NCBI RefSeq assembly: GCF_026151205.1
Contig: NC_087080.1
Location: 17,149,337 to 17,213,336, forward strand
Source of the DNA: Bolinopsis microptera
Taxonomy: Eukaryota; Ctenophora; Tentaculata; Lobata; Bolinopsidae
DNA length: 64,000 nt
Direction: 5' to 3'
Part shown: positions 724-63,267 of the stretch, piece by piece
Layout: each line of letters opens with the position of its first letter
How positions within the stretch are numbered: the stretch's first letter is position 1
Program-made: the position numbers and the translations under genes
The notes under the pieces: model-generated
The model's database searches: none
Seen by the model: only the letters and a program-made list of their open reading frames with translations
Told to the model about the DNA's origin: nothing

Positions 724-899
724 CTGTGGGTATGTGTTGTAAGTTTCAATCTGTGTCGCTGTGTGTAATCGAGTTTCAAGTTAAATCTCAAAATCACAAA
801 CGATATGCAATGATAAATCATCATTATGTCAATTGTTCAATTTAGACTTTGGATTTAGACTTGATGCAAATTTAGACTCGATGCAAATTTAAGCTATAA

Positions 900-1702: not shown

Positions 1703-2578
1703 CTATGTTAAGGTAGGTCTCAGAGTTTTTATAGTGAATTGTGTGGTTTCTCTCTCCTCCACTCTGCTCTGTCCAAGCAACCTACGGAAGATACCCTGAG
1801 TTAAATAACCCATGACCCAGCAAAGTCCCCTATCATTGGTACACTCCCGATCACGAGCACGTGACTGTCCGCATATAGACGATTTACACATTTAGTTTGA
1901 TAGCTCCTGCTAAACTTACTTTTCGTATCAATTATATGTTTTAAATAATCCCGCTCCAGATCTAGGATATAATAATAATAATAATACATTGTTGCAGTTG
2001 TTTCTCTTGCTTTCTTCCCTTGATTTGCAAGCCCTCTTTCTAGTATAAATATTGTGTTTAGTATTTTGTATCAATATTCTTGTATTGATTGTGGTAATTT
2101 GTGTGTCAGATTTCAGTAATAGGTGTTTGCTGAATTACTGTATTATACATTCTGTGACTCTAGCGAGTTGTAGTGAGTCCCATCTCTTGCCCTCTAAGCC
2201 CTGTTTCTTGTTTATACTGTATACAACAAATCATACTTATGTAATAAACATTTTTTTGTAGTGAAGGGTTGTTTGAATCTCTATTTGCTAAGTTATATAA
2301 TATACACTTGGTGATCGTTTCTCCCGTTTTTCTTCCCTTGCATTGCAAAAACAATCAATACATAATGTTATATTCATAAATAAATTCAAATTTCAATTTC
2401 AACCATATATACAGCACGCCGGGCAAGCCCTGTCTCTTGTAAAAACAACCACTTTTGTAGATACACACAGTGTCTACGCCTTTATCCTCTGGTCTCTAGG
2501 GTCAGCTGACTCCAGGCCAGATGAAAATTACCGATTGCCAAGGTTTGATGCCTAGGCGGTCGAGACCTCTTATTGAGA

Positions 2579-3688
2579 GGTCTTAACAATGTCACTGAAA
2601 AAGTACTTCCTTTGGAAAGAAAATAAGTCACACGGAACCAGAATGATAGACCTAACGCAGCAACATTTCAAGGATCTGGCCTATTACACTCAGGCAGACA
2701 TAATGAGCTACAAAAATAAGATCTGGATTGACAGCATCGAAACAAATCTGCAATGCAGAACTGTCAGTAAGAACAAGGAGACCAAGATACTCGGTGCGAT
2801 CACAAAGATCAAAAACAGTGGGCTGCTCCTAGACAAAAACAACTTCTTATTCGGGCACAATATGAGTAAAAATCTAGACAGCCAAATAATGGACTACATT
2901 CACGGCAGCTCGCCACTCTTTGCGAATATCCAAAAGGTCATGGGTGGTGGCAGTGGTGAGGCCTGTCGTTTCTGCAACAGCTTCAATGATTCTCCTGTAC
3001 ACCAGCTCCTATTGTGTCTGGAGGTGCAAGACACCAGTTACCTGCAACTAAAGAATAGAAGAGCTGGGTGGGGCTGACTCACATTACTATCTAGATGAAG
3101 TGTTAACAAAAATCAGCACACAAAAAGTATTCATTAGAAGAGTCGAATTCCTTTGGGTACAAAATGATGCTCTCAAGGATTTATCCAACTAAAAGATCAT
3201 AAAATAATGACTCTGCAAACATCTCAGAGAAATAATACCACCGTAAAGAATAAAGAGGGGGATCCTGGACCCCGAAATCCACCACTTTTCTGTACTTTCA
3301 GAGGTACCAATGTGGCAGATAACCAGGGCTCATGCTGCCGCTGAGCTAAAGCAGTAGAGGGGATGGCGGCTTCTCTAGGATCTAACACGTCCTGAAGCAG
3401 ACCAACACTATGTCCCAACGCACTGGTGTTGGGATGTCTGCCCCCGGTACCTGTCCGGGTCAATAAAGCAGTCAAGCATCATGTATGTTATGTTGAGCAT
3501 TCTCAACCAACAAATGTGGGAACCCCCACGAAAGACCAAAACAGATCTAAAGAGACACTTAACAACATTGGAAAAATAGACTTCAATTTGTTTATATAAT
3601 TTATAAAGCATATATTATTGCCCACGTTAAGGGGCCTGTTAATAATTTAGTAAATTATTTGCTATTTTAGATTTAATAATAATAAAAA
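2579..3688 (+). mobile_element. 5'-truncated LINE insertion with 11-bp TSD
   Basis: The insert is bounded by TCTTATTGAGA at 2568-2578 and 3689-3699. The paralogous site at 10040-10050 has this 11-mer once with no insert. The first half encodes an ORF2 C-terminus (from 2589, about 160 residues) with a zinc-knuckle-like CRFCNSFNDSPVHQLLLC motif. One A fewer than in the right copy shifts the frame near 3055; the coding sense then continues in another frame to about 3190. The 3' end is A/T-rich (TTTAATAATAATAAAAA), as expected for target-primed insertion on the plus strand. Confidence 0.8.
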
Positions 3689-3749
3689 TCTTATTGAGAC
3701 CCGATATAATAATAATATAATATAACTCAGATTATGTAATTACACTTAC

Positions 3750-3911
3750 ATTGGCGTCACCATGCATTTCCAAGGTAATGGCACGGAAGTCAAGCTCAGC
3801 TGCTAATTTGAGAAACACCTGCCCTGCTATGGTCTGTCCGGGAGAGTATACTGGCCGAGGGTTCCGGTTGTGAAGCCGGATCTCAAACTTTGTTATCGAT
3901 TCCTTTTCCAT
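3750..3911 (-). CDS. ARRDC copy 1, exon A (N-terminus of alpha-arrestin)
   Basis: Encodes 54 residues from an ATG at 3911: MEKESITKFEIRL, then PVYSPGQTIAGQVFLKL and DFRAITLEMHGDAN, followed by a perfect GTAAGT donor. The pattern Y-x-PG-x-x-(V/I)-x-G-x-V with a following 'I.L...G.A' strand is typical of the first arrestin beta strands. Alpha-arrestins are adaptors that recruit NEDD4-type ubiquitin ligases to membrane proteins. Copy 1 has Arg at residue 19 where copies 2 and 3 have Leu, which is unusual in this proline turn. Confidence 0.75.
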
Positions 3912-4013
3912 CTTCAATAACAGAAATTCAGAGTCTGTTATTGATTTTAAAATCAAAATTTAGATGCATATTTAGATGCATATTTTTGATATATGCAATT
4001 TGTGTTGTATATA

Positions 4014-5212
4014 TACAGGGTGGCCCAGAAGTAACTGCCCAAACGCAACCCTTTAATAACTCACGTAATCCTTCTTAGATAGAATTGCACAGAAATTTCA
4101 GAGATTATAGATATGGGTCAAACTTAGATTTCCTAAAAGTTTCGTCAAATTTAATTAATTACAGTGGGTGTGGCATGCGACTCCCTCTTTTTCGCTATTG
4201 TCACCATAACATAAAGTGATAACGCTTTCAGCTAGGAACTTTAAAGTTTCTAGACATATTTGATCTGATATTATTATTATAACCAACATTGCTTATATTC
4301 TGCCTTGTAAACAAAGAGCAAATCTTCTTAATGCCTTCTTCCTGTCCTAAAACTAAAACTTCATCCTATTAAAGTAAAGGCCTGTTGTTACCACAAGCTA
4401 TTATACCGTCCCTCTCAAAAACATGCCTCAGCCTCCATCATAAACAATTTTAGTTTTCAGTCCTTCTAGTTTCCAAAAATCTACCGAGCTAGTGTTCTGG
4501 TGTGCACAAAAGCCCCTAAGCCCGTGCATTCCTTGCCCCCGCTAGCTGCCAGTCCTTGACAAACTTCCAATAGCAAAGATCAACTAGTCATTTACAAATT
4601 GAGCACTATACAATTTTAATTGTTTTAAATATTGACTTTGTAAAATGAGCTAAAACATTGATTTATTAGTTTCATTAGTTTCATTGATAATTGAATTGCT
4701 TTCCCAAAATTTCAAGTTGGTTTTTCACAATTTAACCGAGTTATGGCTCTTTTAAGATATTGCTGATACTTGATCTTGGCACTTAAGCAGTGATTTCGTC
4801 ACCCAATCAGTAATCTCATCGAAAGCTATTTGCTAGCGAGCAACAATGAGCTTCATTATGCGGTAACGAGTATGTTCAATGTTGGTGGATGAGGAGCTGA
4901 TCACTATGATTGAATAGTGACGTTCCTTAGAACCAATTTGAAATTTTAAGGAAAATGCTTTAATATTGAATATCAAACCAAATATGTTTAGAAAATTTAA
5001 AGTTTTTAGCTAAAAAGCGTAATCACTTTATGGTGGCAGTAGCGAAAAAGGGATTGGCGCGCCACACCCAATGTAATTTATTAAATTTGACGAATCTTTC
5101 AGGAAATCCAAGTTTAACATGACCCATATATTTTAATTTTTGAAATTTCTTTGCTTTGCAATTCTAAAAATATTTGCGTGAGGTATTAAAGGGTTGCGTG
5201 TTCATATAGCCG
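4014..5212. mobile_element. Candidate non-autonomous TIR element
   Basis: The left part begins TACAGGGTGGCCCAGAAGTA and continues with CGCAACCCTTTAATAACTCA. The right part, reverse-complemented, contains CGCAACCCTTTAATACCTCA, followed by matching blocks such as the repeated TCAAATTTAATAAATTAC and GTGGCGCGCC/GTGGCATGCG stretches. About 230-250 bp at each end are inverted copies of each other, with divergence, around a unique core of about 700 bp. No transposase is seen. The outermost right end is worn, so the limits are approximate. Confidence 0.55.
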
Positions 5213-5585
5213 TACCATGTGTATACACGTACGGCGGTCGCGCGCTACTAACGCTCTGGTTAGAGCAAGGTTGCGTGTGCAGTGTGAAAAGTTTCTTTTG
5301 GGACACATTGTATTTTAAATGTAATAGATTTGATTTTGTTTCATATGATCTAATGCGCGGCTTCTACCATTAAGTACGTTTACGATGCACAGGGGGGCTA
5401 AAACATAAAATCAGGTTTTCAATAAAACGGTGCCTTTTGTAGTTGAACTTCGCCAACAGTTGCGTTCGTCCAATGAAATCGCTGAATTTTGCAAGTCATT
5501 ATGAATAACCGAATTACATACAATCATACATTCATAAGCGGAGCTTGGCTTACATTTGATACATGTTTCGAATCGGCGGCGCGCT

Positions 5586-10745: not shown

Positions 10746-11744
10746 AAGAAGAAGAAGAAAGAAGTAAAATATTTGCATAAAAATCCGTGTGTTGCCAAGA
10801 GAAATGGAGTAAATATCTCTTGATTTTTTCCATTCACACTCTTTTGTAAAAAGACAGTACTAGTGAAAGGTTAAGAATGGTCATTTTTGCAGAAAAAGAG
10901 GGATTTTGGAGACTTATTAGAATTAGAATTAGAATCAAATTTACACAGCAATATAATAAAGATAGTAAAAAAATTTAGAGATGCTTCGATCTGCTGTGCA
11001 GGACATTCAAATCAGTCCAAAACTGTTAATGGAGTGCCCTTCTAAGGACTAAAAATCAAAACATACTATAGTATGTATATAAATAATAAGTTATAAGTTA
11101 ATGATTATAAGGTATGGTAAATTGGTGGGTTGAAACATTGAACTGTGGGCATGAAGGCAACCATTAAATTATTACGAAAATTACATAGATACCCACTTTA
11201 ACATAACGTCAGAATTATGAACACAACAAGAAAATTGAGAATAATCTTGTGCAAGGGTAGGGACCCAGATGTCGATTCTAACCCAAATAAACTTTAAGGA
11301 GGCTTCTCATCAGTAGCCGCACCTCCTTACTCGGTTTCTGAACTGGAATTCTATGGGCTTCCAGACGGCCAGATCGAGTATTACCATCCCATCCTTCTAG
11401 AGTTCATCACAAGTAGCACCCACCTTGAAGATCTTTGACACCCAGACACACCCCCATTGGCGAACAAACTTTGGATATAATCTTACAAGCTATTGTTTAT
11501 TTCATTATACGATGAGACACCATTAATTACATCCTTTCAGCGCTGATACATAACAAATAATTTGAGGCGGAGAAGACAGAAGAAAACACATCGGCAAAGT
11601 CAATGGACGGCTATACAGCAACGTGGCTAGTGGCCCGCCTGCACGGAGGGGACGGAACGGTTAACAGGTATTATTATTATCACTTCGAGATGGCCAGGCC
11701 TACTCTCATGCTGTCTATATGTGATGATTAACTCTGAAAAACTA

Positions 11745-11816
11745 GGGACAACTGGGGAATGATCCCAGAACCTCGAGATTTCGCGTCTCTTGCTCTACCA
11801 ATTGAGCTACTGACCC
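11745..11816 (-). tRNA. tRNA-like sequence, pseudogene (left arm)
   Basis: The exact reverse complement of 11999-12070 gives the same 72-nt cloverleaf with a good A box (TAGCTCAATTGGTAGAGC). It lacks U33 and a normal T-loop, so it is a SINE head and not a working tRNA. Confidence 0.6.
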
Positions 11817-11998
11817 TGATTCTCAGAGCGAAATCACCACTCATATACAGCACAATTTCATGCTTTGTGTGGAATATCATTTATCAGTTATTTAGAATAT
11901 ATATTCGCATGTATATATTCTAAATAACTGATAAATGATATTCCACACAAAGCATGAAATTGTGCTGTATATGAGTGGTGATTTCGCTCTGAGAATCA

Positions 11999-12070
11999 GG
12001 GTCAGTAGCTCAATTGGTAGAGCAAGAGACGCGAAATCTCGAGGTTCTGGGATCATTCCCCAGTTGTCCC
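11999..12070 (+). tRNA. tRNA-like sequence, pseudogene (right arm)
   Basis: 72 nt fold as a cloverleaf. The acceptor is GGGTCAG/TTGTCCC with one mismatch, the D arm GCTC/GAGC, the anticodon stem GAGA/TCTC around loop CGCGAAA, and the T stem CTGGG/CCCAG around loop ATCATTC. The D arm carries a textbook pol III A box. Position 33 is G instead of U and the T-loop lacks TTCGA, so it is tRNA-derived, not functional. The nominal anticodon would be CGA. Confidence 0.6.
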
Positions 12071-13171
12071 TAGTTTTTCAGAGTTAATCATCACATATAG
12101 ACAGCATGAGAGTAGGCCTGGCCATCTCGAAGTGATAATAATAATTAAATGTTTCGCAGATTGGCAATTGATCGGTGTAGTTGGTGTTGTACACACTGCA
12201 CTGATAACGATATCACGTTGAACGTGTAATGTAAATATAGTGTGGATACATGCGAATATATATTCTAAATAACTGGTTAACAGGTATGGTTAATCGTGTT
12301 CAAAAGGAAATTTGCAATCACTGTCTGAAGAATATTGGAGTAGGGCTTCCCCACTTTGAATGTTTTGTCTCGGTATTGTCGTATACTTAGTACTTACCAG
12401 AATACAAATTTAATATTTCGATTTGATATAAATTCAAAATTAGAACATTCAAATGGTAAAAAATTGTGAATGATTTTCATGGTGAATCAAGTTTCCAAAT
12501 TGTAAAATTTCACCATTTTGTTTGTTTGGGGACCGGTTTTTGGTTCACCAGCTAATGTTTACAAAATCATAAGATACATAACAATATAATTTTATTCAAT
12601 ATAAGTGAGAATGAGAATTAAAAATTATGATGTAACCTTTATCGTTTATTCTTTTTTTTAAACCAAAAACTTTAAAAAACTTCATTCAACATTTCAAATA
12701 AAACAAACAGTTATACTCATCAACCACTTATCATACACTAAAAAGTTGTTTAAAAACGCTACAGTGTACAATTACATGCGGTACATTTTCTTTCGCAATT
12801 TTTAAACTTTCTTCAAAACATCATCAAACAGTATAAGAAAAAAAAACAGATATTTATTCCGGACCATGCCGGTAGTTCTAATGACCAATTTACAAAAATA
12901 GTTATATATAAATAATATTATAATTATTGTCACTACAACAGCTACAGTGATGATTATTTACATAGCTGACTAGTGTCTTATTATTGTGTTAATTATAACT
13001 TAGTGTGGAACCTGACAGTGACTTTATTATTATCTAAGTTAGTGATCAGTTAGTGACTAACATAAAGAGTATACTGTGTTGAAGTAATTAGCTATTATTA
13101 AATGCATAAGTCGGATAACTAGGAGCATAAGTCCCACCTCCCTGGACCTCATTCCCTTCTCCCTCAGTCCC

Positions 13172-13941
13172 TTACATCGCCGCCCAACCGTGCATCACTT
13201 CTTCATAGCTGGGTAGTGGTGGTGCACTAATGTCTGGTGGTGGTGCACTAATGTCTGGTGGTGGTGCACTAATGTCTGGTGGTGGTGCACTAATGTCTGG
13301 TGGTGGTGCATTAATGTCTGGAGGCGGTGCACTAATGTCTGGTGGTGGTGCATTAATGTCTGGAGGCGGTGCACTAAAATCTGGAGGCGGTGAACTAATG
13401 TCTGGCGGTGGTGCACCTATGGCTGGAGGCGGTGCGTTTGCGTCCGGCTGGTATTGGAGGTTGATGTGTTGCACCTGTTCTTGTTGACGAAGTGGGATTG
13501 TACCGATGGTGATGTTCAACGGAACGTTCAGATCATACCCAAACCATAAGGGATGCACACTGAGCACCACAGTGTACATTATATCTATGATGTTACAGTT
13601 GATGAGGCGGGAGGGCGGGAGGGGTGGTAGGAGGAGCCCGACATTACTCCACGTGAAACTGGTACCCGGTGCAATCCTTCCCCTCGTGCGGGTCAATATT
13701 GTCTTGTTTACGGTCTGCTTCTTACCACATGATGATGTGAAAATATTGCTCTCAATCAGCTTTATCTTTGATTTGGTCATGACCTTGTTGCTAAGATTCT
13801 CTATACTAGCGGAAAAGGAAATGCTCTCCCCACACACGAACCCCAGCTTGGGGAAGGAGAGTGAAGCGCTGAGTGGACCAGTAGTACAGCAGAGATATCC
13901 AAACTTTTTACTCCCACTAATGGTCTTCGGATGTGCTGCAC
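13172..13941 (-). CDS. ARRDC copy 3, exon D (arrestin C-domain and proline-rich tail)
   Basis: The last coding exon of an alpha-arrestin. It follows TTATTTCAG and joins in phase to exon C. It reads KKFGYLCCTTGPLSASLSF, FVCGESISFSASIENLSNK, and later WFGYDLNVPLNITIGTIPL. These are the arrestin C-domain landmarks: the G-x-x-I-x-x-x-x-x-I-x-N-x-S strand and the final 'pi.IGTiP' strand. The tail holds about ten copies of a heptapeptide APPPDIS/N and ends APPLPSYEEV...AAM. LPSY is an L/PPxY-type WW-domain ligand, fitting recruitment of NEDD4-family ubiquitin ligases. The stop is at 13172. The frame is open over 256 codons. Confidence 0.85.
13216..13436 (-). repeat. 21-bp coding minisatellite (APPPDIx heptapeptide)
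   Basis: About ten tandem 21-bp units (plus strand GTGGTGCACTAATGTCTGGT and variants) encode the proline-rich heptapeptide in the ARRDC tail. Unit-to-unit differences are mostly GGTGGT versus GGAGGC, which is silent. The opposite strands also read open because 21 is a multiple of three, but those frames are shadows. Confidence 0.9.
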
Positions 13942-15228: not shown

Positions 15229-16133
15229 AACTAGTTGTTTTAAACGATTTTACTGATAAGAGAGCAACTGTTACGGCACAAAGAAGCGCAAGCATTACTA
15301 GCAATATAAGTGTCCAAGTTACCCTCCTAGTCTCCTACACAATTTGAACTTTTTCGTCATATTTGAACTAACTATGAATTGATTGTGGGTATAAAATAAA
15401 ATTTTGTTTTACTAACAAGAAATGCACCGGTTTTCTTTTGTGGATGGCCGCTCAATTTCCCGATCCGTGATGGCTTATTTTACTAAATTCAATATAACCT
15501 GGGTCAAAGGTCAGCGCTTATGTGTAATTGTATTGCGCGAACGTTTTTCTATCGCGCATTCTTAAAATCGAGTCTAAAAACCTATCTTCTCCTACAATTT
15601 TTGAGCAATCACCCTCAAAATTTCAGGATATGTTCTTAGGATCAGTTAGAGGCCCCCTTAATCACTGATCACTTCTTATTGATCTATAAGAACATTTGTT
15701 GTTTTGAGATACGAACATTTTATGTTTAATTTCAATTCTGTATTTTATGTAGGGTCGGCACTAATATCTTTAAATGGTTTAACCGTCGTATTTTTATTTA
15801 GCTGAAATAGATTTTTTAATTTATGTTTTATAATTATGTACATTTTTCTCACTCCAGCTGCAGTCTGGTAGTGTCGAGATTCATGAATGTTTTTCTAGCC
15901 TTCTTTATATCAATAAATCATATTGTTGCCTCATTGCTAAAAGAACTGGATTCTTCCAGGAAGCATCCCGTGCACAGAGCTTGGTCTACATATATATTAA
16001 ATTATTAACCATTCATTCTGTATGTGCACGAAAATTTATTTCAATCAATCATTGTAGATATATTTTGGTCTTCAAGTGTAAATGTAATTGTAATACATTA
16101 ATGTAAAATGTGTTTAAAAAAAAGAAAACTCAC

Positions 16134-16244
16134 CGTACATATCCTGGTTGAGGTCGATTGTTGACACAACTGTGACATCAAGAAAAATGTACAGAGGTTT
16201 CTTTTTTCTTCTAATTTTAACAGTCAAGTCATACTGGACCCTCC
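16134..16244 (-). CDS. ARRDC copy 3, exon C
   Basis: Same as 613-723: GRVQYDLTVKIRRKKK and onward, acceptor CACAG, donor GTGAGT. It ends with one base of a glycine codon that exon D completes (G|GT GCA GCA), which validates the join to 13941. Confidence 0.8.
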
Positions 16245-16420
16245 CTGTGGGTATGTGTTGTAAGTTTCAATCTGTGTCGCTGTGTGTAATCGAGTTTCAA
16301 GTTAAATCTCAAAATCACAAACGATATGCAATGATAAATCATCATTATGTCAATTGTTCAATTTAGACTTTGGATTTAGACTTGATGCAAATTTAGACTC
16401 GATGCAAATTTAAGCTATAA

Positions 16421-16631
16421 TATTGAGATATTATTGGAGCCGTGGGCTTCATAGTATAGAGGAAGTCGTAAAGAGAGAGGAGAATGCACTCACTACTTAT
16501 GTGGTGAAGAGTAGAGACCCAGAACTGATTGCTCTGAAGGACTACTTTGTCAAAGACAAGAAGAGATAGAGAAAGAAACTGACCGAACACAACGCGAGGA
16601 AATACGCAAGGAGAAGTGGACAGCTAATATT
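16421..16631 (+). pseudogene. LINE ORF2 remnant, duplicate copy
   Basis: Duplicate of 900-1110 with three or four substitutions, reading RGLHSIEEVVKREENAL. It keeps the same internal TAG. Confidence 0.45.
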
Positions 16632-17106
16632 AATAGCAATTGTTGCAATTTTTTGAATTTGCATATCATGAAGATCATCTGCCTGTATCCATACTACTTA
16701 ATATAACATTAGTAACAGTTTGATTACAAGATGATTTCATCGATATTATTTACGAGATATGGATCTTTAAAGAGCACAACAATTACAAGTTAAGACTCCT
16801 AAAATAGCTTATCAAATATTTATTCATTATTGCTGTAGCCTGTATTTATGATATGTTTAGAAGTTATAAATTAAAATTAAAGGGAGATTTGCAGGTGAAT
16901 GATATAGTCAGCTGCAACAATTATACATATCAAAGTAGTATGTAAAACGGTATCAATTGTGTGGACAGTAACCATAATGATAACGACTGTCCATCATAAT
17001 GCCAGATATCTCCACTGATTATGACTAATTATCATGATAATAATAGATAACTCTAATTGCAGTAAATATGTATAACCCCAGGTCACGAAGCAAATCACCC
17101 ACTTAC

Positions 17107-17223
17107 CATGCTTTCCAGTGAAAGTGGCGGGTATGTTCGTGGGAAGAGTTATAGAGAAGGGCAAGTTGTGACGTCCAGCCGGAAGCTTGCTCTCCTCCCT
17201 GCCGTCCCCGATAAGATACAGTT
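17107..17223 (-). CDS. ARRDC copy 3, exon B
   Basis: Identical in structure to 1586-1702. It carries LPAGRHNLPFSITLP and FTGKHG, the most diagnostic part of the alpha-arrestin N-domain. Confidence 0.8.
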
Positions 17224-17440
17224 CTATGTTAAGGTAGGTCTCAGAGTTTTTATAGTGAATTGTGTGGTTTCTCTCTCCTCCACTCTGCTCTGTCCAAGCA
17301 ACCTACGGAAGATACCCTGAGTTAAATAACCCATGACCCAGCAAAGTCCCCTATCATTGGTACACTCCCGATCACGAGCACGTGACTGTCCGCATATAGA
17401 CGATTTACACATTTAGTTTGATAGCTCCTGCTAAACTTAC

Positions 17441-17482
17441 TTTTCGTATCAATTATATGTTTTAAATAATCCCGCTCCAGAT
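17441..17482 (-). CDS. Candidate short exon between ARRDC exons A and B
   Basis: 42 nt preceded by ATATCCTAG and followed by GTAAGTTT read LERDYLKHIIDTK and end in phase 1, exactly what exon B requires (joined ...DTKKLYLIGD). Its 5' phase needs one carried base, which exon A (phase 0) does not supply. Either another microexon is missing or this is a coincidence. The same sequence lies in the left repeat at 1920-1961. Confidence 0.35.
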
Positions 17483-18099
17483 CTAGGATATAATAATAAT
17501 AATAATACATTGTTGCAGTTGTTTCTCTTGCTTTCTTCCCTTGATTTGCAAGCCCTCTTTCTAGTATAAATATTGTGTTTAGTATTTTGTATCAATATTC
17601 TTGTATTGATTGTGGTAATTTGTGTGTCAGATTTCAGTAATAGGTGTTTGCTGAATTACTGTATTATACATTCTGTGACTCTAGCGAGTTGTAGTGAGTC
17701 CCATCTCTTGCCCTCTAAGCCCTGTTTCTTGTTTATACTGTATACAACAAATCATACTTATGTAATAAACATTTTTTTGTAGTGAAGGGTTGTTTGAATC
17801 TCTATTTGCTAAGTTATATAATATACACTTGGTGATCGTTTCTCCCGTTTTTCTTCCCTTGCATTGCAAAAACAATCAATACATAATGTTATATTCATAA
17901 ATAAATTCAAATTTCAATTTCAACCATATATACAGCACGCCGGGCAAGCCCTGTCTCTTGTAAAAACAACCACTTTTGTAGATACACACAGTGTCTACGC
18001 CTTTATCCTCTGGTCTCTAGGGTCAGCTGACTCCAGGCCAGATGAAAATTACCGATTGCCAAGGTTTGATGCCTAGGCGGTCGAGACCTCTTATTGAGA

Positions 18100-19210
18100 G
18101 GTCTTAACAATGTCACTGAAAAAGTACTTCCTTTGGAAAGAAAATAAGTCACACGGAACCAGAATGATAGACCTAACGCAGCAACATTTCAAGGATCTGG
18201 CCTATTACACTCAGGCAGACATAATGAGCTACAAAAATAAGATCTGGATTGACAGCATCGAAACAAATCTGCAATGCAGAACTGTCAGTAAGAACAAGGA
18301 GACCAAGATACTCGGTGCGATCACAAAGATCAAAAACAGTGGGCTGCTCCTAGACAAAAACAACTTCTTATTCGGGCACAATATGAGTAAAAATCTAGAC
18401 AGCCAAATAATGGACTACATTCACGGCAGCTCGCCACTCTTTGCGAATATCCAAAAGGTCATGGGTGGTGGCAGTGGTGAGGCCTGTCGTTTCTGCAACA
18501 GCTTCAATGATTCTCCTGTACACCAGCTCCTATTGTGTCTGGAGGTGCAAGACACCAGTTACCTGCAACTAAAAGAATAGAAGAGCTGGGTGGGGCTGAC
18601 TCACATTACTATCTAGATGAAGTGTTAACAAAAATCAGCACACAAAAAGTATTCATTAGAAGAGTCGAATTCCTTTGGGTACAAAATGATGCTCTCAAGG
18701 ATTTATCCAACTAAAAGATCATAAAATAATGACTCTGCAAACATCTCAGAGAAATAATACCACCGTAAAGAATAAAGAGGGGGATCCTGGACCCCGAAAT
18801 CCACCACTTTTCTGTACTTTCAGAGGTACCAATGTGGCAGATAACCAGGGCTCATGCTGCCGCTGAGCTAAAGCAGTAGAGGGGATGGCGGCTTCTCTAG
18901 GATCTAACACGTCCTGAAGCAGACCAACACTATGTCCCAACGCACTGGTGTTGGGATGTCTGCCCCCGGTACCTGTCCGGGTCAATAAAGCAGTCAAGCA
19001 TCATGTATGTTATGTTGAGCATTCTCAACCAACAAATGTGGGAACCCCCACGAAAGACCAAAACAGATCTAAAGAGACACTTAACAACATTGGAAAAATA
19101 GACTTCAATTTGTTTATATAATTTATAAAGCATATATTATTGCCCACGTTAAGGGGCCTGTTAATAATTTAGTAAATTATTTGCTATTTTAGATTTAATA
19201 ATAATAAAAA
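18100..19210 (+). mobile_element. 5'-truncated LINE insertion, duplicate copy
   Basis: Duplicate of 2579-3688 within the long direct repeat, with the same 11-bp target duplication. The ORF from 18110 ends at LQLKE because of an extra A relative to the left copy. The remaining codons (ELGGADSHYYLDEVLTK and onward) lie in another frame up to about 18710. It sits in the intron between exons A and B of ARRDC copy 3, inserted opposite to the host gene. Confidence 0.8.
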
Positions 19211-19271
19211 TCTTATTGAGACCCGATATAATAATAATATAATATAACTCAGATTATGTAATTACACTTAC

Positions 19272-19433
19272 ATTGGCGTCACCATGCATTTCCAAGGTAA
19301 TCGCACGGAAGTCAAGCTCAGCTGCTAATTTGAGAAACACCTCTCCTGCTATGGTCTGTCCGGGAGAGTATACTGGCAGAGGGTTCCGGTTGTGAAGCCG
19401 GATCTCAAACTTTGTTATCGATTCCTTTTCCAT
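19272..19433 (-). CDS. ARRDC copy 3, exon A
   Basis: 54 residues, MEKESITKFEIRL ... NPLPVYSPGQTIAGEVF ... EMHGDAN, then GTAAGT. Relative to copy 1 it has Leu at residue 19 and Glu at residue 31. With exons B, C and D it makes a near-complete alpha-arrestin. Only the short segment between GDAN and the exon B start is unresolved. Confidence 0.78.
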
Positions 19434-19535
19434 CTTCAATAACAGAAATTCAGAGTCTGTTATTGATTTTAAAATCAAAATTTAGATGCATATTTAGATG
19501 CATATTTTTGATATATGCAATTTGTGTTGTATATA

Positions 19536-20770
19536 TACAGGGTGGCCCAGAAGTAACTGCCCAAACGCAACCCTTTAATAACTCACGTAATTCTTCTTAG
19601 ATAGAATTGCACAGAAATTTCAGAGATTATAGATATGGGTCAAACTTAGATTTCCTAAAAGTTTCGTCAAATTTAATTAATTACAGTGGGTGTGGCATGC
19701 GACTCCCTCTTTTTCGCTATTGTCACCATAACATAAAGTGATAACGCTTTCAGCTAGGAACTTTAAAGTTTCTAGACATATTTGATCTGATATTATTATT
19801 ATAACCAACATTGCTTATATTCTGCCTTGTAAACAAAGAGCAAATCTTCTTAATGCCTTCTTCCTGTCCTAAAACTAAAACTTCATCCTATTAAAGTAAA
19901 GGCCTGTTGTTACCACAAGCTATTATACCGTCCCTCTCAAAAACATGCCTCAGCCTCCATCAAAAACAATTTTAGTTTTCAGTCCTTCTAGTTTCCAAAA
20001 ATCTACCGAGCTAGTGTTCTGGTGTGCACAAAAGCCCCTAAGCCCGTGCATTCCTTGCCCCCGCTAGCTGCCAGTCCTTGACAAACTTCCAATAGCAAAG
20101 ATCAACTAGTCATTTACAAATTGAGCACTATACAATTTTAATTGTTTTAAATATTGACTTTGTAAAATGAGCTAAAACATTGATTTATTAGTTTCATTAG
20201 TTTCATTGATAATTGAATTGCTTTCCCAAAATTTCAAGTTGGTTTTTCACAATTTAACCGAGTTATGGCTCTTTTAAGATATTGCTGATACTTGATCTTG
20301 GCACTTAAGCAGTGATTTCGTCACCCAATCAGTAATCTCATCGAAAGCTATTCGCTAGCGAGCAACAATGAGCTTCATTATGCGGTAACGAGTATGTTCA
20401 ATGTTGGTGGATGAGGAGCTGATCACTATGATTGAATAGTGACGTTCCTTAGAACCAATTTGAAATTTTAAGGAAAATGCTTTAATATTTTTTATATTAT
20501 AATAAATAATAATAAATAATAATATTGAATATCAAACCAAATATGTTTAGAAAATTTAAAGTTTTTAGCTAAAAGCGTAATCACTTTATGGTGGCAGTAG
20601 CGAAAAAGGGATTGGCGCGCCACACCCAATGTAATTTATTAAATTTGACGAATCTTTCAGGAAATCCAAGTTTAACATGACCCATATATTTTAATTTTTG
20701 AAATTTCTTTGCTTTGCAATTCTAAAAATATTTGCGTGAGGTATTAAAGGGTTGCGTGTTCATATAGCCG
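19536..20770. mobile_element. Candidate non-autonomous TIR element, duplicate copy
   Basis: Counterpart of 4014-5212 in the right long repeat. It carries an extra AT-rich block of about 36 bp at about 20490 with TAATAATAAATAA-type sequence, which may itself be a microsatellite expansion. Confidence 0.55.
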
Positions 20771-21140
20771 TACCATGTGTATACACGTACGGCGGTCGCG
20801 CGCTACTAACGCTCTGGTTAGAGCAAGGTTGCGTGTGCAGTGTGAAAAGTTTCTTTTGGGACACATTGTATTTTAAATGTAATAGATTTGATTTTGTTTC
20901 ATATGATCTAATGCGCGGCTTCTACCATTAAGTACGTTTACGATGCACAGGGGGGCTAAAACATAAAATCAGGTTTTCAATAAAACGGTGCCTTTTGTAG
21001 TTGAACTTCGCCAACAGTTGCGTTCGTCCAATGAAATCGCTGAATTTTGCAAGTCATTATGAATAATTGAATTACATACAATCATACATTCATAAGCGGA
21101 GCTTGGCTTACATTTGATACATGTTTCGAATCGGCGGCGC

Positions 21141-21981
21141 GCGCTTCGCGCGCGAAAAGTGGCATGCAACGTATGTCAAGCAATTACATAATGCAGTTTT
21201 AATACTTTCAACACTACTATATAACAAATAATTTGAGGATGTACCATGGAAGTCTAGAGTACCCGCAACAAAGAATGCAGCTGTAAACGACTTGGTAATG
21301 GGGTGCATGTGAGCTCTTGGGGCCAGTGGCATCAGAAGACTGGCTATCAGCCTTGGAAATAAGATGAGTTTTCTTTAGATTCATGACACATCCGCACTGC
21401 ATCTCCATCACCATGACACAAACATTCTTTCCTCCATTACCCCACCCTTGCCTAGCCCCACCCCTCCCTCCCTCTACCTGTTGCGGGTACTCTGGACTGC
21501 ATGGACATCCTTGAATAGAGGTAATTTTTATAGTAGTGTTGTGGTATTATCTTGAGTACATGTATCTATTATCTATATTCTATATCAACAAACTAGTGTA
21601 GACGCCCTATCTAGCCCAACCCTTCCCTTAACCCTCTTCAGCCCCTTTACTCTATAATACATTGTACTCTTATCCCACGCCCAACCTGCTATAGACATTA
21701 AATTATCTCTATCCCTCCCCTTTGGGACCTTGCAGTCCAACCCGCCCCCGCTCCCCTGCCACAACATCACCACTACATACCACCATACACTCATTTATTT
21801 AGGCTTTGTGCTCTTTGAAAATTCTCTCTGCTTATTCCTCTTGTTTAATCTATCTTTCCATTTGATATCACTCACTCATTTCAAAACTGTTTTACTCTCA
21901 TCATCTTATTTTCAGGCTGTTGGTTGGTTCGATGGTGTCCTGGCCCCAATCTCATCATGTGCTCCCTACCATTCTCTCTTC
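21141..21981 (+). other. 5' region of the LINE and junction
   Basis: The junction with the long repeat falls at a palindromic GCGCGCTTCGCGCGC near 21136-21152. An imperfect 33-bp inverted repeat (21238-21271 against 21478-21511, GTTGCGGGTACTCT core) follows. From about 21600 the strand is pyrimidine-rich and rises smoothly into ORF1, so this is probably the LINE 5' UTR with an internal promoter. The exact 5' end was not found. The frame is open from about 21730, but the first in-frame ATG is 21982. Confidence 0.45.
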
Positions 21982-24213
21982 ATGCAAGACATAACTATTA
22001 CTGAAGACAACCCTCGGTCTACTAGATCGAGAAACAACTCCTCTCCTTCTGACAGAAATATCATCGATTTTACGAAACCTATTACCATCACAACCCCTGG
22101 ACAATACTTGCTCAGTAACCCTGACTCTGGTTGTAGTATTAGTCTCTTCCAGGATGTTTTTCCAAGTCAGCTATGTGATCAGTTCGCTTGTGAAATTGAA
22201 AACACTGGTGCCCTCAAACAGTACACCACAATCCACAAGCAGGCTCAAGTACAGCTCCCACGACTGTCATCTTGGTATGGCCCTGTTGACTACGCATTCT
22301 CAGGAATTGTAATGAAAGCCAACTCTGTGTCAGAATGTCCTCGTCTTATTGCAGCATATCAGCACATGGCGGAAAACATCTTTCAACCCAACAACATCGA
22401 TTGTTCCTCTGATTGCTTTTTGATCAACCAGTATAGGACAGGTCGAGATTCTTGTGGCGAACATAGCGATAATGAGCCAGAGGTTGACCTCTCTAAACCT
22501 GTTGTTACTCTGTCACTCGGTCAACAACGCTGTATGCTCATTAGAGAGGCTAAGAACTCTGGAAATGCCATCACAATCAAACTTGACCAAGGCTCAGTTC
22601 TCGTTATGCATGGTACTGATTTCCAAAAAAAGTACACTCACCAAATACCCAAAGACAATGCAATCACTGCTGCACGCACTTCAGTGACCTATAGGACCTG
22701 CAACTCCAGCTTCCTGCGTACCAGAAACGCTCTATCTACACCTCTTATTGATATGGCCATCACTCCTGTACTCGCGAACCTGTACTCGCGAACTGTACCT
22801 GCCCCCAAGACCCCAGGAGACTCCGCAAGCTCCCAGTCGCTTCAAAACAGACGTAGATCTTCTCTTACACTAACATCACTACAAACCATCATCACTGGAA
22901 GCTCCCCAGTCGGATCTCCTCTGGCCTCAAGCTCTCCCTCCGTGACCAGCAGTAAAACTTCAGTCTCTGATAGTGAGACATTCCCTCTCAGTCTAGAAGC
23001 AATGTTAGAAGCCGTTGATTCATTAAAAGAAAAAATGGTGAAAAGTGAACTTTCTCGTCATGGTAGCTCAAACTCAGGGTCCCTCATTGACTGTAAGAAA
23101 CGACTAAAGAAAGCTGTGAAAGCATGTCACAAACGCCTCAGCTTGCTTCTTCTTGAGCCTCCATCTACCTCAGCTGAGCCTGACTGCGTCACCCACTCCC
23201 TCCAAACCATGGAAAACTCTGTTATTGACCTTCAAGCTAAAATTAGCCTGCAACATACCACCCTGCAAACTCTTGTCTTGTGCTCTGACAACAAATCCAA
23301 TCAAAAAGGTAGCCCCAGCTCCCCTAATTTGTCTAACGAGCTGAATACTGTGGACAAGAGACTTGAAAAGCTTGAGGAAATCATGAGTAGCATCAACTCA
23401 AATCAACAAGACACTGCTACCTCCCTTAAAGCCTTTGAAGAAAATATCACTGCTATTAAAAACGAGGTTGAGGTCTCTAAGGCCTGCCTGCAGTCTCTCC
23501 AGCCCAATGGCCATAAAAATCCCCAAAAGAAAAGGCCCTCGCCTCATCCTGCTCAAAACCAGAACCGTGAAAGCTCAAATAGCACAACTCAGAACCCCCA
23601 TAGAAAAACCAGAAAACAGAGAAAAGTGCTCCTCCTTCATGACTCTCAGATGAACGGATTTATAGCCGAGTCTTTCTCTTCTGGGTTCAAGGTTGAAAAA
23701 AAGAAAGTAGGTTCCTTTACTGACCTGAACGGTAAACACATGAGAGATGTGATCAAAGAACCAGAAGTTGACTGCTACATTCTTCAGCTCGGAGTTAATG
23801 ATTACAGATATAATGACCGTCATGTTAATAAAGCAGTCAAGGATGCAAAAGAAGCCATCGACACACTCCTCTCAAGTTCCAGTGCTAAAATTGTTGTCTC
23901 CCTGCCCACTCCAACTCCTGGCCCAATAAGTGATCTAACAAATCAATTTGTTTCGGAGATCACCCAATTTGTCTCCACTAAAAGAGAGCTTAGTGACTTA
24001 TACCGGCGCCTCTTCACTGTAAACAACACTGGAAACTTCTCCCGAGCCATCTCTGCTGCTGAGTCATCTGAAGACTCTCCTAACCCTCTGAAGGAAGACC
24101 AACTTCATGTCTCAGAGTATGGTCTAAAAAAACTCTGTATGAATATCAAACTTGGCCTATACCGTGCCTTTGGTATGAGATCCTATAGAAAGCAGCCCCC
24201 CACAGAGCGTTAG
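21982..24213 (+). CDS. LINE ORF1: AlkB dioxygenase - coiled coil - SGNH hydrolase
   Basis: 743 residues. Residues about 40-245 form an AlkB-type Fe(II)/2-oxoglutarate dioxygenase. It has a substrate-lid region PRLSSWYGPVDYAFSG (93-108), N149-x-Y151, metal ligands H161-x-D163 and H220 (in THQIPK), and 2OG-binding R232 and R238 (RTSVTYR). The N-to-H spacing of 12, H-to-R of 12 and R-to-R of 6 resemble ALKBH2. A Ser/Pro-rich linker (about 250-310, 370-440) and a coiled coil (about 454-507) lead to a basic stretch. Residues 548-730 form an SGNH-type fold: HDSQ with S555, GVND (606-607) and DQLH (D706, H709). Esterase-like ORF1 domains are known in CR1-group LINEs; the AlkB module is the oddity. 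ORF2 starts 7 nt after the stop. Likely roles are RNA/cDNA binding with alkyl-lesion repair (inferred). Confidence 0.88.
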   Translation: MQDITITEDNPRSTRSRNNSSPSDRNIIDFTKPITITTPGQYLLSNPDSGCSISLFQDVFPSQLCDQFACEIENTGALKQYTTIHKQAQVQLPRLSSWYGPVDYAFSGIVMKANSVSECPRLIAAYQHMAENIFQPNNIDCSSDCFLINQYRTGRDSCGEHSDNEPEVDLSKPVVTLSLGQQRCMLIREAKNSGNAITIKLDQGSVLVMHGTDFQKKYTHQIPKDNAITAARTSVTYRTCNSSFLRTRNALSTPLIDMAITPVLANLYSRTVPAPKTPGDSASSQSLQNRRRSSLTLTSLQTIITGSSPVGSPLASSSPSVTSSKTSVSDSETFPLSLEAMLEAVDSLKEKMVKSELSRHGSSNSGSLIDCKKRLKKAVKACHKRLSLLLLEPPSTSAEPDCVTHSLQTMENSVIDLQAKISLQHTTLQTLVLCSDNKSNQKGSPSSPNLSNELNTVDKRLEKLEEIMSSINSNQQDTATSLKAFEENITAIKNEVEVSKACLQSLQPNGHKNPQKKRPSPHPAQNQNRESSNSTTQNPHRKTRKQRKVLLLHDSQMNGFIAESFSSGFKVEKKKVGSFTDLNGKHMRDVIKEPEVDCYILQLGVNDYRYNDRHVNKAVKDAKEAIDTLLSSSSAKIVVSLPTPTPGPISDLTNQFVSEITQFVSTKRELSDLYRRLFTVNNTGNFSRAISAAESSEDSPNPLKEDQLHVSEYGLKKLCMNIKLGLYRAFGMRSYRKQPPTER

Positions 24214-24220
24214 AATAACC

Positions 24221-27200
24221 ATGAAATTCAATAAAAAACAAGCCTCACGAGATCAACTCGCTGTAATGTCCTGGAACATTCAGGACAGCACAGGAGATGG
24301 GTCTAACAAATTTGAAAATAAAGAATTTCTTTCAATCCTCAATCAAGCTAACATTCTGTGTCTCCAAGAAACAAAGAAACAAGTTAAGATTGAAGGATAC
24401 CTTTCTTTTAATAGCAACCGCAAAAATTCTCGCTCAGGAGGGGTCTGCATTCTTGCTGAAAATGATTTAAGAAAAGGTGTTTCTTGTGTGCCTTGTAGCG
24501 AATCTGACGATATTATTGTTGTCAAACTTGACAAAAACTTTTTTAAGCTTGATTTTGACCTATTTTTAGTATGTTACTATATTAGCCCTGCATATTCGTC
24601 CTATGTCAAAAAAAATCCAGACTATACTGCTAATACTTTCTCCGCTCTTGACTCCATCTGTATCAGACTACGTCAAAAGGGAGAGGTTATCATGTGTGGC
24701 GATGCAAATGCAAGAACTGGAAAACTCCCAGACTATATCCTCTCTTGTAATGCACCTGCCATGCATGACATTTACAATGACATTGGACTTGAACATGACA
24801 TCGAAGAACCCAGAAACAACTCTGACCTGACTATATCTGAACCCCACTGCCAACATTTTCTTGACATGGTTATTAATAACCAACTCAAAATTCTTAATGG
24901 CCGTACCCTCGGGGACACCACTGGAAAAATGACCTGTCACAAATACAATGGGAGCAGTGTGGTTGACTATTTCGTAATCACCTCATGGGCAAGGGATCAT
25001 GTAAACTCTCTCCAAGTGAAGGAGTTTACATCATACTCTGACCATTGTCCATTAGTCTTGAAACTTACCACATTTGAACCATTTGTTGCCAACTTCCAGC
25101 TCCCAGACTTTTCTAATTTTCCTTGTGGCTATAAGTGGGACAGCAACACCTCTCACTCACTATTTAAAACAGCCCTTAACTCGCCCGAAATTGTTAGTAA
25201 CCTGGAAAACATTGCAGCAAACGAATTTAGCAGCACCTTGGAGGGCAATCATGAACTGAACGATGCAATTACTAACTGTCTCCACAGTGCTGCTGATATA
25301 GCGTTAAAAGTGAAAAAACCTCCTAAAACTTCCGCCCACAAGAAATGGTTTGACCCACAAATCAACTCCTCGAGGCGAAACCTGAATAGGCTAGCAAACC
25401 GGCTAGGTAGTAAGCACTGCAACAATATTCTCAGACGTGAATATTACAAGCAGCGCAATAAGCACAGTAATCTTGTTAACAGTAAGAAATTATCTTTTCT
25501 TAGGAAGTTAAATGAAGCTATTGAAGAGGGTCATATTCTTGACTGGAAAAAATTTAAAAGGCTTAAACAAGAACATGACACTAGCCCCCTACTAGACAAA
25601 TTCGATCTAGCTAGCTTTCATGATTTCTTTGCATCCCTCTATAAGAAACCAGACCAGGAGCCCGATCCCACTCACCACAATCACAATCATTACCCTGAAC
25701 CACCAGATCTGGATATCCTAAACAAGCTCATATCTGAACCCGAACTAACTTCTGCAATCAAAAAGCTCAAAAAGGGTAAAAGTTGCTCAAATGACTTGAT
25801 CTCAAACGAAATGCTTCAGAGCCTAACTCCGCTTTGTCTCCAAGTCATCCTCAAAACGTTCAACCACTCTCTGGTCTCAGGTTACTATCCATGGCATACC
25901 AGTATTATCACTCCTATCTACAAATCAGGCAACCCCTTCAGCCCAGACAATTACAGAGCAATAGCAGTTGGCAGTTGTATGGGTAAGCTGTTCTCTAGCA
26001 TTTTACTTGAACGTCTGTTATACTTCAAAAAGCTCTACTGTCCTGATCCAAAAGAACAGCTCGGTTTCTCGAAGGGTGCTCAAACTAATGATCACGTTTT
26101 CACCCTTAAGACAGTCATTGATAAATACACTAAAGTTAAAAAAGCTCGTCTCTATGCATGCTTTGTTGATCTAAGAAAGGCCTTTGACACTGTATGTAGG
26201 GACCTTCTTCTGCACAAAATAACATGCCTTGGAATTACCGGTAACTTCTTCAACTGCTTAAGTGATATGTACAAAAACTCAATTGCTCATATAAAAATCT
26301 CCAAACTCTTGTCCCCTAAAATTGATATTGGCAAAGGAACGGAGCAAGGACACCCCCTATCACCAGACCTTTTTAAAATCTATATTAACAACTTGTCATC
26401 TCTTCTGAAATCTGTTGGTGATTATCCAGTTCTTGCTGACGTTCTAATATCACATCTGCTCTGGGCTGACGATCTTGTCCTTCTTGCTCTAAGTCCCAAG
26501 GCCTTGCAAGTCAATATCAACATTCTATCTGACTTCTGTAACTCCATGGGCCTTGAAGTAAATATAAAGAAAACTAAGATTGTCATATTCAGCCCTCCCA
26601 AAAAGAAGCAGTCCCATGAAACATTTACATTGGGAGGTCAGCCCATCCAGCACACCGAAAAGTACTGCTATCTTGGCATAATATTCCACAGAAATGGATC
26701 CTTTACGGCAGCAAATACTGAGCTGAGGGCCAAAGCTCTCCGTGCTCTATATGGCCTTAAAGGCAATATAGTTAAAGATGCCCTCTCTCACCGTGCCCTT
26801 AATATTCTATTTGATTCCTTAATCAAACCAATCCTGCTTTATGGCTGTCAAGTCTTATGCCCCCACTCTAAAACAATGAGATACCTTTCAAAAATAGATG
26901 ACAAAGCCAGCCCCCAGCATACCCTGAAGTACATTGCACAGGACCACTATGAGAAATTCCACCTAAAATTTATCAAGTGGTCTTTGTCCGTCCATTCAAA
27001 AGCATCAAATATAGGTTGCTGGGGCGAAAGTGGGCGCCACCCCCTATTCTTTGAAGCCTGCAAACTTGCAATAGATTACTATAGTCGCCTTGAAAGCACC
27101 GAAAATGAACTACTTTGTGCTGCATTTCACGAGCAGATCATGCTGGGCCTTCCTTGGTATACCAACATCTCAAAGCTTCTCACCAAATACAACTTCCCCC

Positions 27201-27754
27201 ACTCATCTTCATCAAAATCTAAGCTCTCCACCCAAATCAGTCATAATATGAGGGAAGAATTCGTGAATACCTGGAAATCTGCCAAGGCCTCCTCACCAAA
27301 ACTAGAATTCTATAACTTAATTAAACATGATTTTGAACCAGAGGCATACCTACGAATAATCAAAGTACCTGATTTTCGAAAAAGCTTGACAAGGTTTCGT
27401 ATCAGCTGCCACAACCTCTACGTTGAAAGGGGCAGATACGAAACCCCTCTTGTACCAAGAGAAGAACGTTGGTGCACTTACTGCTTTTTCAGTAAAGGGC
27501 TCAAACCTATCGAGGACGAAAGCCATGTATTAATTGACTGTTTGCTTTACTCCTCAGTTAGGGAAAAATTCAACTTTTATCCCCAAAACATCACTGACCT
27601 AGCCGGTCTGCTCTCCAACAAAAATCTAGATCCTACCAAATTTACTGCCACAGCAAGAGCAATCCATTCAATTCTCTCTGTGAACGAACAATATACAGCC
27701 TATTATAAGAGCCCAGATTTCCACTCAAATACTGGCAAGTGCATAATGCTCTAG
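24221..27754 (+). CDS. LINE ORF2: AP endonuclease and reverse transcriptase
   Basis: 1177 residues. The N-terminal exonuclease/endonuclease/phosphatase-type nuclease shows WN19, E50 (LQETK), CGD161-A-N163, D249 and SD274-H275, which are the catalytic set for target-site nicking. The reverse transcriptase follows: FVDLRKAFDT (D650), GTEQGHPLSPDLF, LLWADDLVLL with W748-A-D-D751 in place of the usual F/YADD, then GLEVNIKKTKI and YLGIIF. A C-terminal C1085-x2-C1088-x13-H1102-x4-C1107 motif is probably a zinc knuckle. No RNase H was seen. With the octamer 3' tail this fits the CR1/L2 group. There are no stops or frameshifts, so the copy may be active. Confidence 0.93.
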   Translation: MKFNKKQASRDQLAVMSWNIQDSTGDGSNKFENKEFLSILNQANILCLQETKKQVKIEGYLSFNSNRKNSRSGGVCILAENDLRKGVSCVPCSESDDIIVVKLDKNFFKLDFDLFLVCYYISPAYSSYVKKNPDYTANTFSALDSICIRLRQKGEVIMCGDANARTGKLPDYILSCNAPAMHDIYNDIGLEHDIEEPRNNSDLTISEPHCQHFLDMVINNQLKILNGRTLGDTTGKMTCHKYNGSSVVDYFVITSWARDHVNSLQVKEFTSYSDHCPLVLKLTTFEPFVANFQLPDFSNFPCGYKWDSNTSHSLFKTALNSPEIVSNLENIAANEFSSTLEGNHELNDAITNCLHSAADIALKVKKPPKTSAHKKWFDPQINSSRRNLNRLANRLGSKHCNNILRREYYKQRNKHSNLVNSKKLSFLRKLNEAIEEGHILDWKKFKRLKQEHDTSPLLDKFDLASFHDFFASLYKKPDQEPDPTHHNHNHYPEPPDLDILNKLISEPELTSAIKKLKKGKSCSNDLISNEMLQSLTPLCLQVILKTFNHSLVSGYYPWHTSIITPIYKSGNPFSPDNYRAIAVGSCMGKLFSSILLERLLYFKKLYCPDPKEQLGFSKGAQTNDHVFTLKTVIDKYTKVKKARLYACFVDLRKAFDTVCRDLLLHKITCLGITGNFFNCLSDMYKNSIAHIKISKLLSPKIDIGKGTEQGHPLSPDLFKIYINNLSSLLKSVGDYPVLADVLISHLLWADDLVLLALSPKALQVNINILSDFCNSMGLEVNIKKTKIVIFSPPKKKQSHETFTLGGQPIQHTEKYCYLGIIFHRNGSFTAANTELRAKALRALYGLKGNIVKDALSHRALNILFDSLIKPILLYGCQVLCPHSKTMRYLSKIDDKASPQHTLKYIAQDHYEKFHLKFIKWSLSVHSKASNIGCWGESGRHPLFFEACKLAIDYYSRLESTENELLCAAFHEQIMLGLPWYTNISKLLTKYNFPHSSSSKSKLSTQISHNMREEFVNTWKSAKASSPKLEFYNLIKHDFEPEAYLRIIKVPDFRKSLTRFRISCHNLYVERGRYETPLVPREERWCTYCFFSKGLKPIEDESHVLIDCLLYSSVREKFNFYPQNITDLAGLLSNKNLDPTKFTATARAIHSILSVNEQYTAYYKSPDFHSNTGKCIML

Positions 27755-27956
27755 GAACTCAAAATAAACTCATGAACCATACAAATTTGATTTACTTAAA
27801 GAAAATAGCATTATATTATAACATTTCTATTTTATCCCTACACATTTGTAAATGATTAGAAGTGTGTAACTTAAATTATTTCAGAATTATAACTATTGTG
27901 AACTCAATAAAATAATTATCACTTTTGTATCCTTGTATCCTTGTATCCTTGTATCC
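27755..27956 (+). mobile_element. LINE 3' UTR with octamer tail (TTGTATCC)4
   Basis: A short AT-rich 3' UTR of about 170 bp ends in four perfect copies of TTGTATCC (27925-27956). Tandem octamers in place of poly(A) are characteristic of CR1/L2-type LINEs. This fixes the 3' end of the element. Confidence 0.85.
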
Positions 27957-28190
27957 TAATGCAGCGATTTCATTGGACGCGAACGAGAGCAATTGTTGGC
28001 GACGTTTGACTACACATGGCAGTGTTTGATCGAAAACTTGGTTTCAGATCCCCCTTTGGATGTAAAATAAAACTTGGTGTACGAGGCATATGCGCATAAA
28101 ATTAAAATGCATCGCGCGCCGTAGAAACTAAAAATCTTTAGTTAATTTGCGCGTCTTAGAGGGTTCAGTTTATACTACAGGCTATAATTA
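27957..28190. repeat. Diverged inverted counterpart of the LINE's left flank
   Basis: Directly after the LINE tail, GCAGCGATTTCATTGGACGC and TTGGCGACGTTTGACTAC resemble the reverse complement of 20995-21045 (CCAATGAAATCGCTG and AGTTGAACTTCGCCAAC). The LINE therefore sits between inverted, diverged copies of another repeat. Confidence 0.5.

Positions 28191-32476: not shown

Positions 32477-63267
<30,791 letters not shown>

Follow-up and report, generated by a model that had tools for sequence, protein, structure and literature searches.

Organisation of the element

The window, that is, the whole stretch of 64,000 nucleotides of the Bolinopsis microptera genome that was analysed, contains a full-length LINE with two open reading frames on its forward strand. 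The features that define the element are as follows.

21190..21196, no strand, left copy of the target-site duplication AATGCAG (by eye; the final G is possibly the element's own)
21197..27956, + strand, full-length LINE (5' end at 21196 or 21197, 3' end at 27956 or 27957; ends common to copies with differing flanks)
21982..24213, + strand, ORF1, 743 aa (start codon uncertain)
24221..27754, + strand, ORF2, 1177 aa, endonuclease and reverse transcriptase (Pfam; GDxN, SDH and ADD boxes)
27925..27956, + strand, 3' tail, (TTGTATCC)n (repeat scan of the window; tail shared by copies)
27958..27964, no strand, right copy of the target-site duplication AATGCAG (by eye)

ORF2 begins 8 bases after ORF1 and matches the Pfam profiles RVT_1 (E 9.3e-28) and Exo_endo_phos_2 (E 2.1e-6). 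Both are open reading frames in the window copy. The frame of ORF1 also stays open upstream of its annotated start, and three related copies (L010, L011 and L014) have an in-frame ATG 40–41 codons earlier.

Twelve copies were compared, namely the window copy and 11 others fetched from the genome. Every copy that reaches the 5' end starts with (G)TTTTAATACTTTCAACACTAC, and all copies that extend to the 3' end terminate in the TTGTATCC repeat. Among the flanks that could be read by eye are AATGCA(G) on both sides of the window copy, TAATGTA at L010 and ACAACA at L018. Copying has been recent, since L009 is 99.85% identical to the window copy across 6,757 columns. Five of the 12 copies (window, L009, L010, L012 and L013) combine an ORF1 of 729 codons or more with an ORF2 of 1,162 codons or more, and a search of the same genome with ORF1 returned at least 61 matches (60 scored of 945 candidates). 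With its endonuclease and reverse transcriptase ORF2, multiple copies, target-site duplication and 3' repeat tail, the element is a complete, autonomous comb jelly LINE.

An AlkB domain in ORF1

The N-terminal part of ORF1 has the following features, with conservation counted over those homologue rows that carry a letter at the site (alignment gaps, left uncounted, affect two to three of the 27 rows at the AlkB sites and five at the lid positions).

22096..22710, + strand, AlkB domain, residues ~39–243 (Pfam, PDB sequences, predicted fold)
22426..22434, + strand, N149-x-Y151 (24 of 24 rows, of 27; 9 of 9 copies)
22462..22470, + strand, H161-x-D163, iron ligands (24 of 24 rows, of 27; 9 of 9 copies)
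22639..22641, + strand, H220, iron ligand (25 of 25 rows, of 27; 9 of 9 copies)
22675..22695, + strand, R232 to R238, 2-oxoglutarate binding and second arginine (25 of 25 rows, of 27; 9 of 9 copies)

A sequence-only reading of this locus had proposed that ORF1 carries a complete AlkB-type dealkylase. The profile PF13532 (AlkB-like 2OG-FeII_Oxy_2) bears this out, matching residues 74–238 at E 2.3e-22 and 80.6 bits, so far over the curated cut-off of 31.2 that the match is not due to chance. The residues N149, Y151, H161, D163, H220, R232 and R238 stand where that reading had placed them, so that the HxD...H iron triad and the R-x5-R of the AlkB family are both present, and the catalytic residues are kept in all nine copies compared. 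Structure prediction likewise yielded the correct AlkB jelly-roll, so that neither a wrong fold nor copies lacking the residues, two outcomes that would have told against that reading, were seen. Fold comparison places the domain nearest to ALKBH3 and ALKBH2, with ALKBH3 first. The proposed likeness to ALKBH2 stood in part: the N–H, H–R and R–R spacings of 12, 12 and 6 are as described, and are equally those of the ALKBH3 alignment, but a sequence search of solved structures ranks ALKBH3 first (E 3.2e-15), ahead of ALKBH2 (E 1.2e-7). The label 'ALKBH2-like' was consequently replaced by a placement beside the ALKBH2/3 clade, with ALKBH3 nearest. Profile match, conservation, predicted fold and purifying selection all support AlkB as the N-terminal module of a LINE ORF1, an arrangement that the sequence-only reading had put forward as unfamiliar.

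Two further details concern the substrate side of the domain. E165, which follows the HxD motif, is conserved in 24 of 24 rows; the acid at this position contacts the methylated base in ALKBH2/3. The hairpin that distinguishes ALKBH2 from ALKBH3 is polar or basic in the homologue rows, a character that we take to favour single strands.

Judged by its residues, the active site looks intact, and the domain is very probably catalytically active on nucleic acid. Catalysis might instead have been lost, leaving AlkB as only a nucleic-acid-binding fold within the ORF1 protein. A LINE ORF1 needs nucleic-acid binding, and Pfam lists neither RRM nor CCHC for the window ORF1. However, the iron and 2-oxoglutarate residues are all kept in every covering row and copy, and loss of catalysis is accordingly considered improbable.

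The remainder of ORF1

Three features that the earlier reading had left out lie downstream of the AlkB domain.

22993..23115, + strand, weak SAP-like motif, residues ~338–378 (PF02037; placed by eye on predicted helices)
23329..23496, + strand, long predicted helix, probable coiled coil, residues 450–505 (structure prediction)
23620..24171, + strand, SGNH/GDSL hydrolase domain, residues ~547–730 (homologue alignment, fold comparison)

The Pfam match to SGNH/GDSL is weak in the window ORF1 (E 0.045), and a sequence search with the C-terminal domain alone returned no solved structure, while fold comparison did give a solved-structure match. As in type IV (esterase) ORF1s, an SGNH domain with its catalytic residues is present, and ORF1 is thus a two-enzyme protein that combines AlkB and SGNH. 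Seven of the 27 homologues match the SAP profile PF02037 at E<=1, the best of them at 0.0087, and the profile is absent from the matches of the window protein itself; the motif is probably nucleic-acid-binding. The helix at residues 450–505 is, in the structural model, a probable coiled coil for self-assembly.

A close relative, P0002, appears in NCBI among the uncharacterized LOC genes of B. microptera, which would fit a host AlkB gene, or an assembly artefact, lying beside the LINE and outside the element. However, AlkB and SGNH share one frame, and host-like exons sit elsewhere: L047 is ALKBH3 (45% to human), L048 is a second ALKBH3-like exon and L049 is ALKBH2, all called host-like from their tree placement with human genes. 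Copies elsewhere with common ends and differing flanks rule out a host gene or artefact, the probability of which is close to nil.

Selection on ORF1

Rates of dN/dS were computed by the Nei-Gojobori method for nine copies, excluding L016, L018 and L019, in which ORF1 is broken or cut at its start. For the pairs window/L010, window/L012 and L010/L012, respectively, values were 0.07, 0.05 and 0.06 in AlkB; 0.12, 0.12 and 0.15 in SGNH; 0.12, 0.22 and 0.22 in the middle part; and 0.49, 0.24 and 0.29 in the linker. AlkB thus has the lowest value among the parts of ORF1 in all three comparisons, which share branches. Its dS values were 0.30, 1.11 and 0.93, near 1 in two of the pairs. The near-identical pair L012/L017, with three non-synonymous and no synonymous changes in AlkB, has too few changes to inform. 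Homologues average 63% pairwise identity in AlkB, 61% in SGNH and 36% in the linker.

On these codon comparisons, AlkB in the window's type (type 1) is under purifying selection, with values of 0.05–0.07 across the three subfamily comparisons; the earlier reading had suggested testing for such selection. Purifying selection means that the domain is in use; it says nothing of the reaction.

A second type of LINE with AlkB

A protein-database search returned 29 proteins, of which 26 are of the window's type (38–93% identity) and three, at E ~1e-4, are not: P0028 and P0030, both from Mnemiopsis leidyi, and P0029. Named homologues in NCBI come from B. microptera and M. leidyi only. A search of the same genome with P0029 gave at least 66 matches (66 scored of 998 candidates), and 10 of these type-2 loci, representing about five distinct ORF1 families, were fetched.

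In type 2 the order of ORF1 is coiled coil, AlkB and SGNH, preceded in some members by a PHD finger. The PHD matches lie under the Pfam cut-off (best PHD_4, 25.6 bits against 30.6) and are absent from some families (L037). All 10 loci have an ORF1 of 657–722 codons followed by a frame bearing a reverse transcriptase, which is 982–1,169 codons long in nine and split into 792 + 342 codons in L040. All 10 also keep the HxD and a histidine 12–21 residues before R-x5-R, as well as the SGNH motifs GDSN, GxN and DxxHL. Pfam finds RVT_1 in both type-2 ORF2s examined, and the reverse transcriptases of types 1 and 2 are only 23.6–28.5% identical over 328–444 residues. AlkB is therefore present in ORF1 of at least two very different LINE groups of this genome.

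Four near-duplicate loci were excluded from the type-2 alignment, and a type-2 structure model (P0030, three sequences) was excluded at a mean pLDDT of 43. In the informative pair L038/L040, dN/dS is 0.12 for AlkB and 0.06 for SGNH, so that in type 2 another part, SGNH, is under tighter constraint than AlkB.

The type-2 elements also appear to be mosaic. L037 and L038 are 97.6% identical in ORF2 and only 53% in ORF1, and L038 and L040 are 94% identical in ORF1 and 64% in ORF2, which points to swapping of ORF1 and ORF2 between elements. In the type-2 ORF2s (L035 3661–7089 and others), a PHD/zinc-finger-like stretch precedes the endonuclease (PF00628, E 0.001, below cut-off).

Further relatives and origin of the domain

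A genome search with the human ALKBH3 domain gave at least 150 matches (150 scored of 489 candidates; all at E up to 2.8e-9), a list that mixes host genes with types 1 and 2. By manual count, about 130 of the listed matches lie in open frames of 400–850 codons. Three further families (L050, L051 and L052) have AlkB followed by an SGNH-like stretch, recognised by eye, in one frame; these type-3 families appear to be LINEs. AlkB-like matches also occur in frames of 2,225–3,366 codons (G000 C9:15868162, C9:11092847, C12:2469562 and C12:8338471), which are atypical for a LINE ORF1 and are possibly other mobile elements or large genes.

Trees were built with 13 (first tree) and 12 (larger tree) of the 27 type-1 rows and with seven type-2 rows; E. 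coli AlkB, ALKBH8, one type-3 row and one phage row have long branches. Type 1 clusters in the first tree (97/98) with bacterial and phage AlkB and with ALKBH2/3, away from type 2; forcing types 1 and 2 together gave a p-AU of 0.047. The larger tree also takes in type 3 and the host exons. There type 1 forms a supported group of its own (100/99), which clusters at 94/97 with bacterial and phage AlkB and with ALKBH2/3, the inner forks of that cluster being unsupported. Type 1 lies beside ALKBH2/3 and not inside the ALKBH3 clade, the forks there being weak. Types 2 and 3 are set apart at 81/84, which is not strong. Forcing all LINE AlkBs together gave a p-AU of 0.16, and a single origin is therefore not rejected; forcing types 1 and 2 without type 3 gave 0.008, although this constraint splits a group joined in the tree and is not a proper test. 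In profile searches type 1 is nearest ALKBH3, and type 2 is nearest ALKBH8 and ALKBH2. On such comparisons two captures of AlkB are favoured, and one capture is possible.

Neither ORF1 type had a relative in scans of IMG/VR. Ten matches to AlkB alone (28–42%) came from phage records, and a contig scan with two narrow patterns gave one actinobacterial MAG locus, which has little bearing on bacteria at large.

What the domain may do for the element

LINE ORF1 proteins bind their RNA. The lesions 1-methyladenine (1mA) and 3-methylcytosine (3mC) block pairing and stall polymerases; ALKBH3 removes both from single strands, and the substrates of ALKBH3 and ALKBH2 are mainly these two. The following mechanism may be proposed. 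The ORF1 protein would coat the RNA of the element, and the tethered AlkB would oxidatively strip methyls from the base-pairing face (1-methyladenine, 3-methylcytosine) of the single-stranded template RNA, the first-strand cDNA, or both. Removal of these methyls would allow the reverse transcriptase to make full-length, less mutated copies.

Because selection has preserved the active site, the transposon probably uses AlkB to rid its own genetic material of damage or marks, and the main substrate is fairly likely to be the RNA or cDNA of the element. That the main benefit is unblocking or repair, and not the erasure of host marks, is an evenly balanced proposition. The best explanation overall, to which we give about an even chance, is an autonomous LINE whose ORF1 combines an ALKBH2/3-like AlkB with a weak SAP-like motif, a probable coiled coil and SGNH, and whose AlkB clears RNA or cDNA.

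AlkB might alternatively counter silencing by removing m6A from RNA of the element, or else 6mA or some other mark from DNA, and so block recognition or silencing by the host. An ALKBH5-like domain in orchid Ty3/Gypsy elements, described as binding RNA and demethylating m6A in vitro (PMC9289625), offers a precedent, and part of type 2 has a weak PHD finger, a reader of histone marks in other proteins (PMC4120745), within the same protein. However, the ORF1 AlkB is nearest to ALKBH3 and ALKBH2 in both sequence and predicted fold, and it is because of this ALKBH2/3-like signature that clearing of template or cDNA is moderately preferred; erasure of host marks is a minority possibility.

General DNA repair, directed at the site of integration or at host nucleic acids (DNA or RNA), would aid insertion or ease methylation stress without the element's own template being the target. 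Relatives of ALKBH2/3 are established DNA repair enzymes, and the SAP-like match, albeit weak, would fit such a role. Nevertheless, LINE proteins favour their own RNA (a cis preference established for L1), and nothing in this analysis points to host DNA, which makes general repair unlikely.

A broader proposal, which we hold tentatively at somewhat less than even chances, is that AlkB is a recurrent module of ctenophore LINE ORF1s, which acquired it on two or more occasions from separate AlkB lineages and carry it at differing positions. Retrotransposition of these elements would then include, as a built-in chemical step, the removal of methyls from the template RNA, from cDNA or from host marks.

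Relation to known systems

Among the modules known from LINE ORF1s are RNA-binding, PHD and esterase modules. Among the matches listed in a literature search at title and abstract level, with subscription papers outside its scope, no published report of AlkB in a LINE ORF1 was found. AlkB domains are present in the replicases of some plant RNA viruses, where they presumably protect viral RNA; these too are RNA-replicating parasites with an AlkB of their own, but there the domain belongs to a viral polymerase polyprotein and not to a retroelement. Animal ALKBH3 and ALKBH2 share the fold, the iron and 2-oxoglutarate residues and the spacings of the ORF1 AlkB, but are cellular repair genes.

Metcalfe and Casane (2014; PMC4120745) distinguish five ORF1 types among 448 elements, and 'alkb', 'dioxygenase' and 'oxygenase' have no occurrence in the main text of that paper. 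Their type IV ORF1 of CR1 and L2 LINEs resembles the present one in having an SGNH/GDSL esterase ORF1 upstream of an endonuclease and reverse transcriptase ORF2, but is described there without AlkB (PMC4120745). As esterase ORF1s are reported in that text only in two vertebrate groups, the comb jelly elements widen their range. The orchid Ty3/Gypsy elements are likewise retrotransposons with an AlkB-family domain; as described, however, they are LTR elements in which an ALKBH5-like, m6A-active domain occupies a separate additional ORF, recent in one orchid genus (PMC9289625). In the comb jelly elements, by contrast, the domain lies in a LINE ORF1, is ALKBH2/3-like and occurs in several divergent families.

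If the proposal is true, a conserved methyl-removing enzyme would add a chemical step to retrotransposition and would open to experiment the question of whether methylation of bases, be it damage or a mark, restricts LINEs. The position of ctenophores close to the root of the animal tree, together with the many AlkB-bearing copies in the genome, provides ample material for study. The elements also represent a natural library of AlkB enzymes, possibly with new substrates.

Surroundings in the window

Three host-gene-like exons lie in the window.

13172–13837, − strand, arrestin C-terminal domain
58316–59134, − strand, rhodopsin-like receptor
61076–61516, + strand, tyrosine/serine-threonine kinase domain

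Repeats occur both next to the LINE and away from it. A 5.6 kb direct repeat, 99.06% identical, occupies 1–5584 and 15522–21142, its right copy ending just 5' of the LINE. Inverted arms flank the element at 20966–21046 and 27958–28044 (62 nt at 77%, 22 nt at 95%), and sequence resembling them is also found near copy L011. A near-perfect palindrome at 11670–12145 (476 bp) is its own reverse complement at 98.7%. Related repeat units, 77–98% identical, form two blocks at 36406–37793 and 41195–42879 and are direct within blocks and inverted between them. Finally, a tandem array at 47174–51372 comprises 100 copies of a 42-bp unit with 98% matches, and accounts for the chance long ORFs there.
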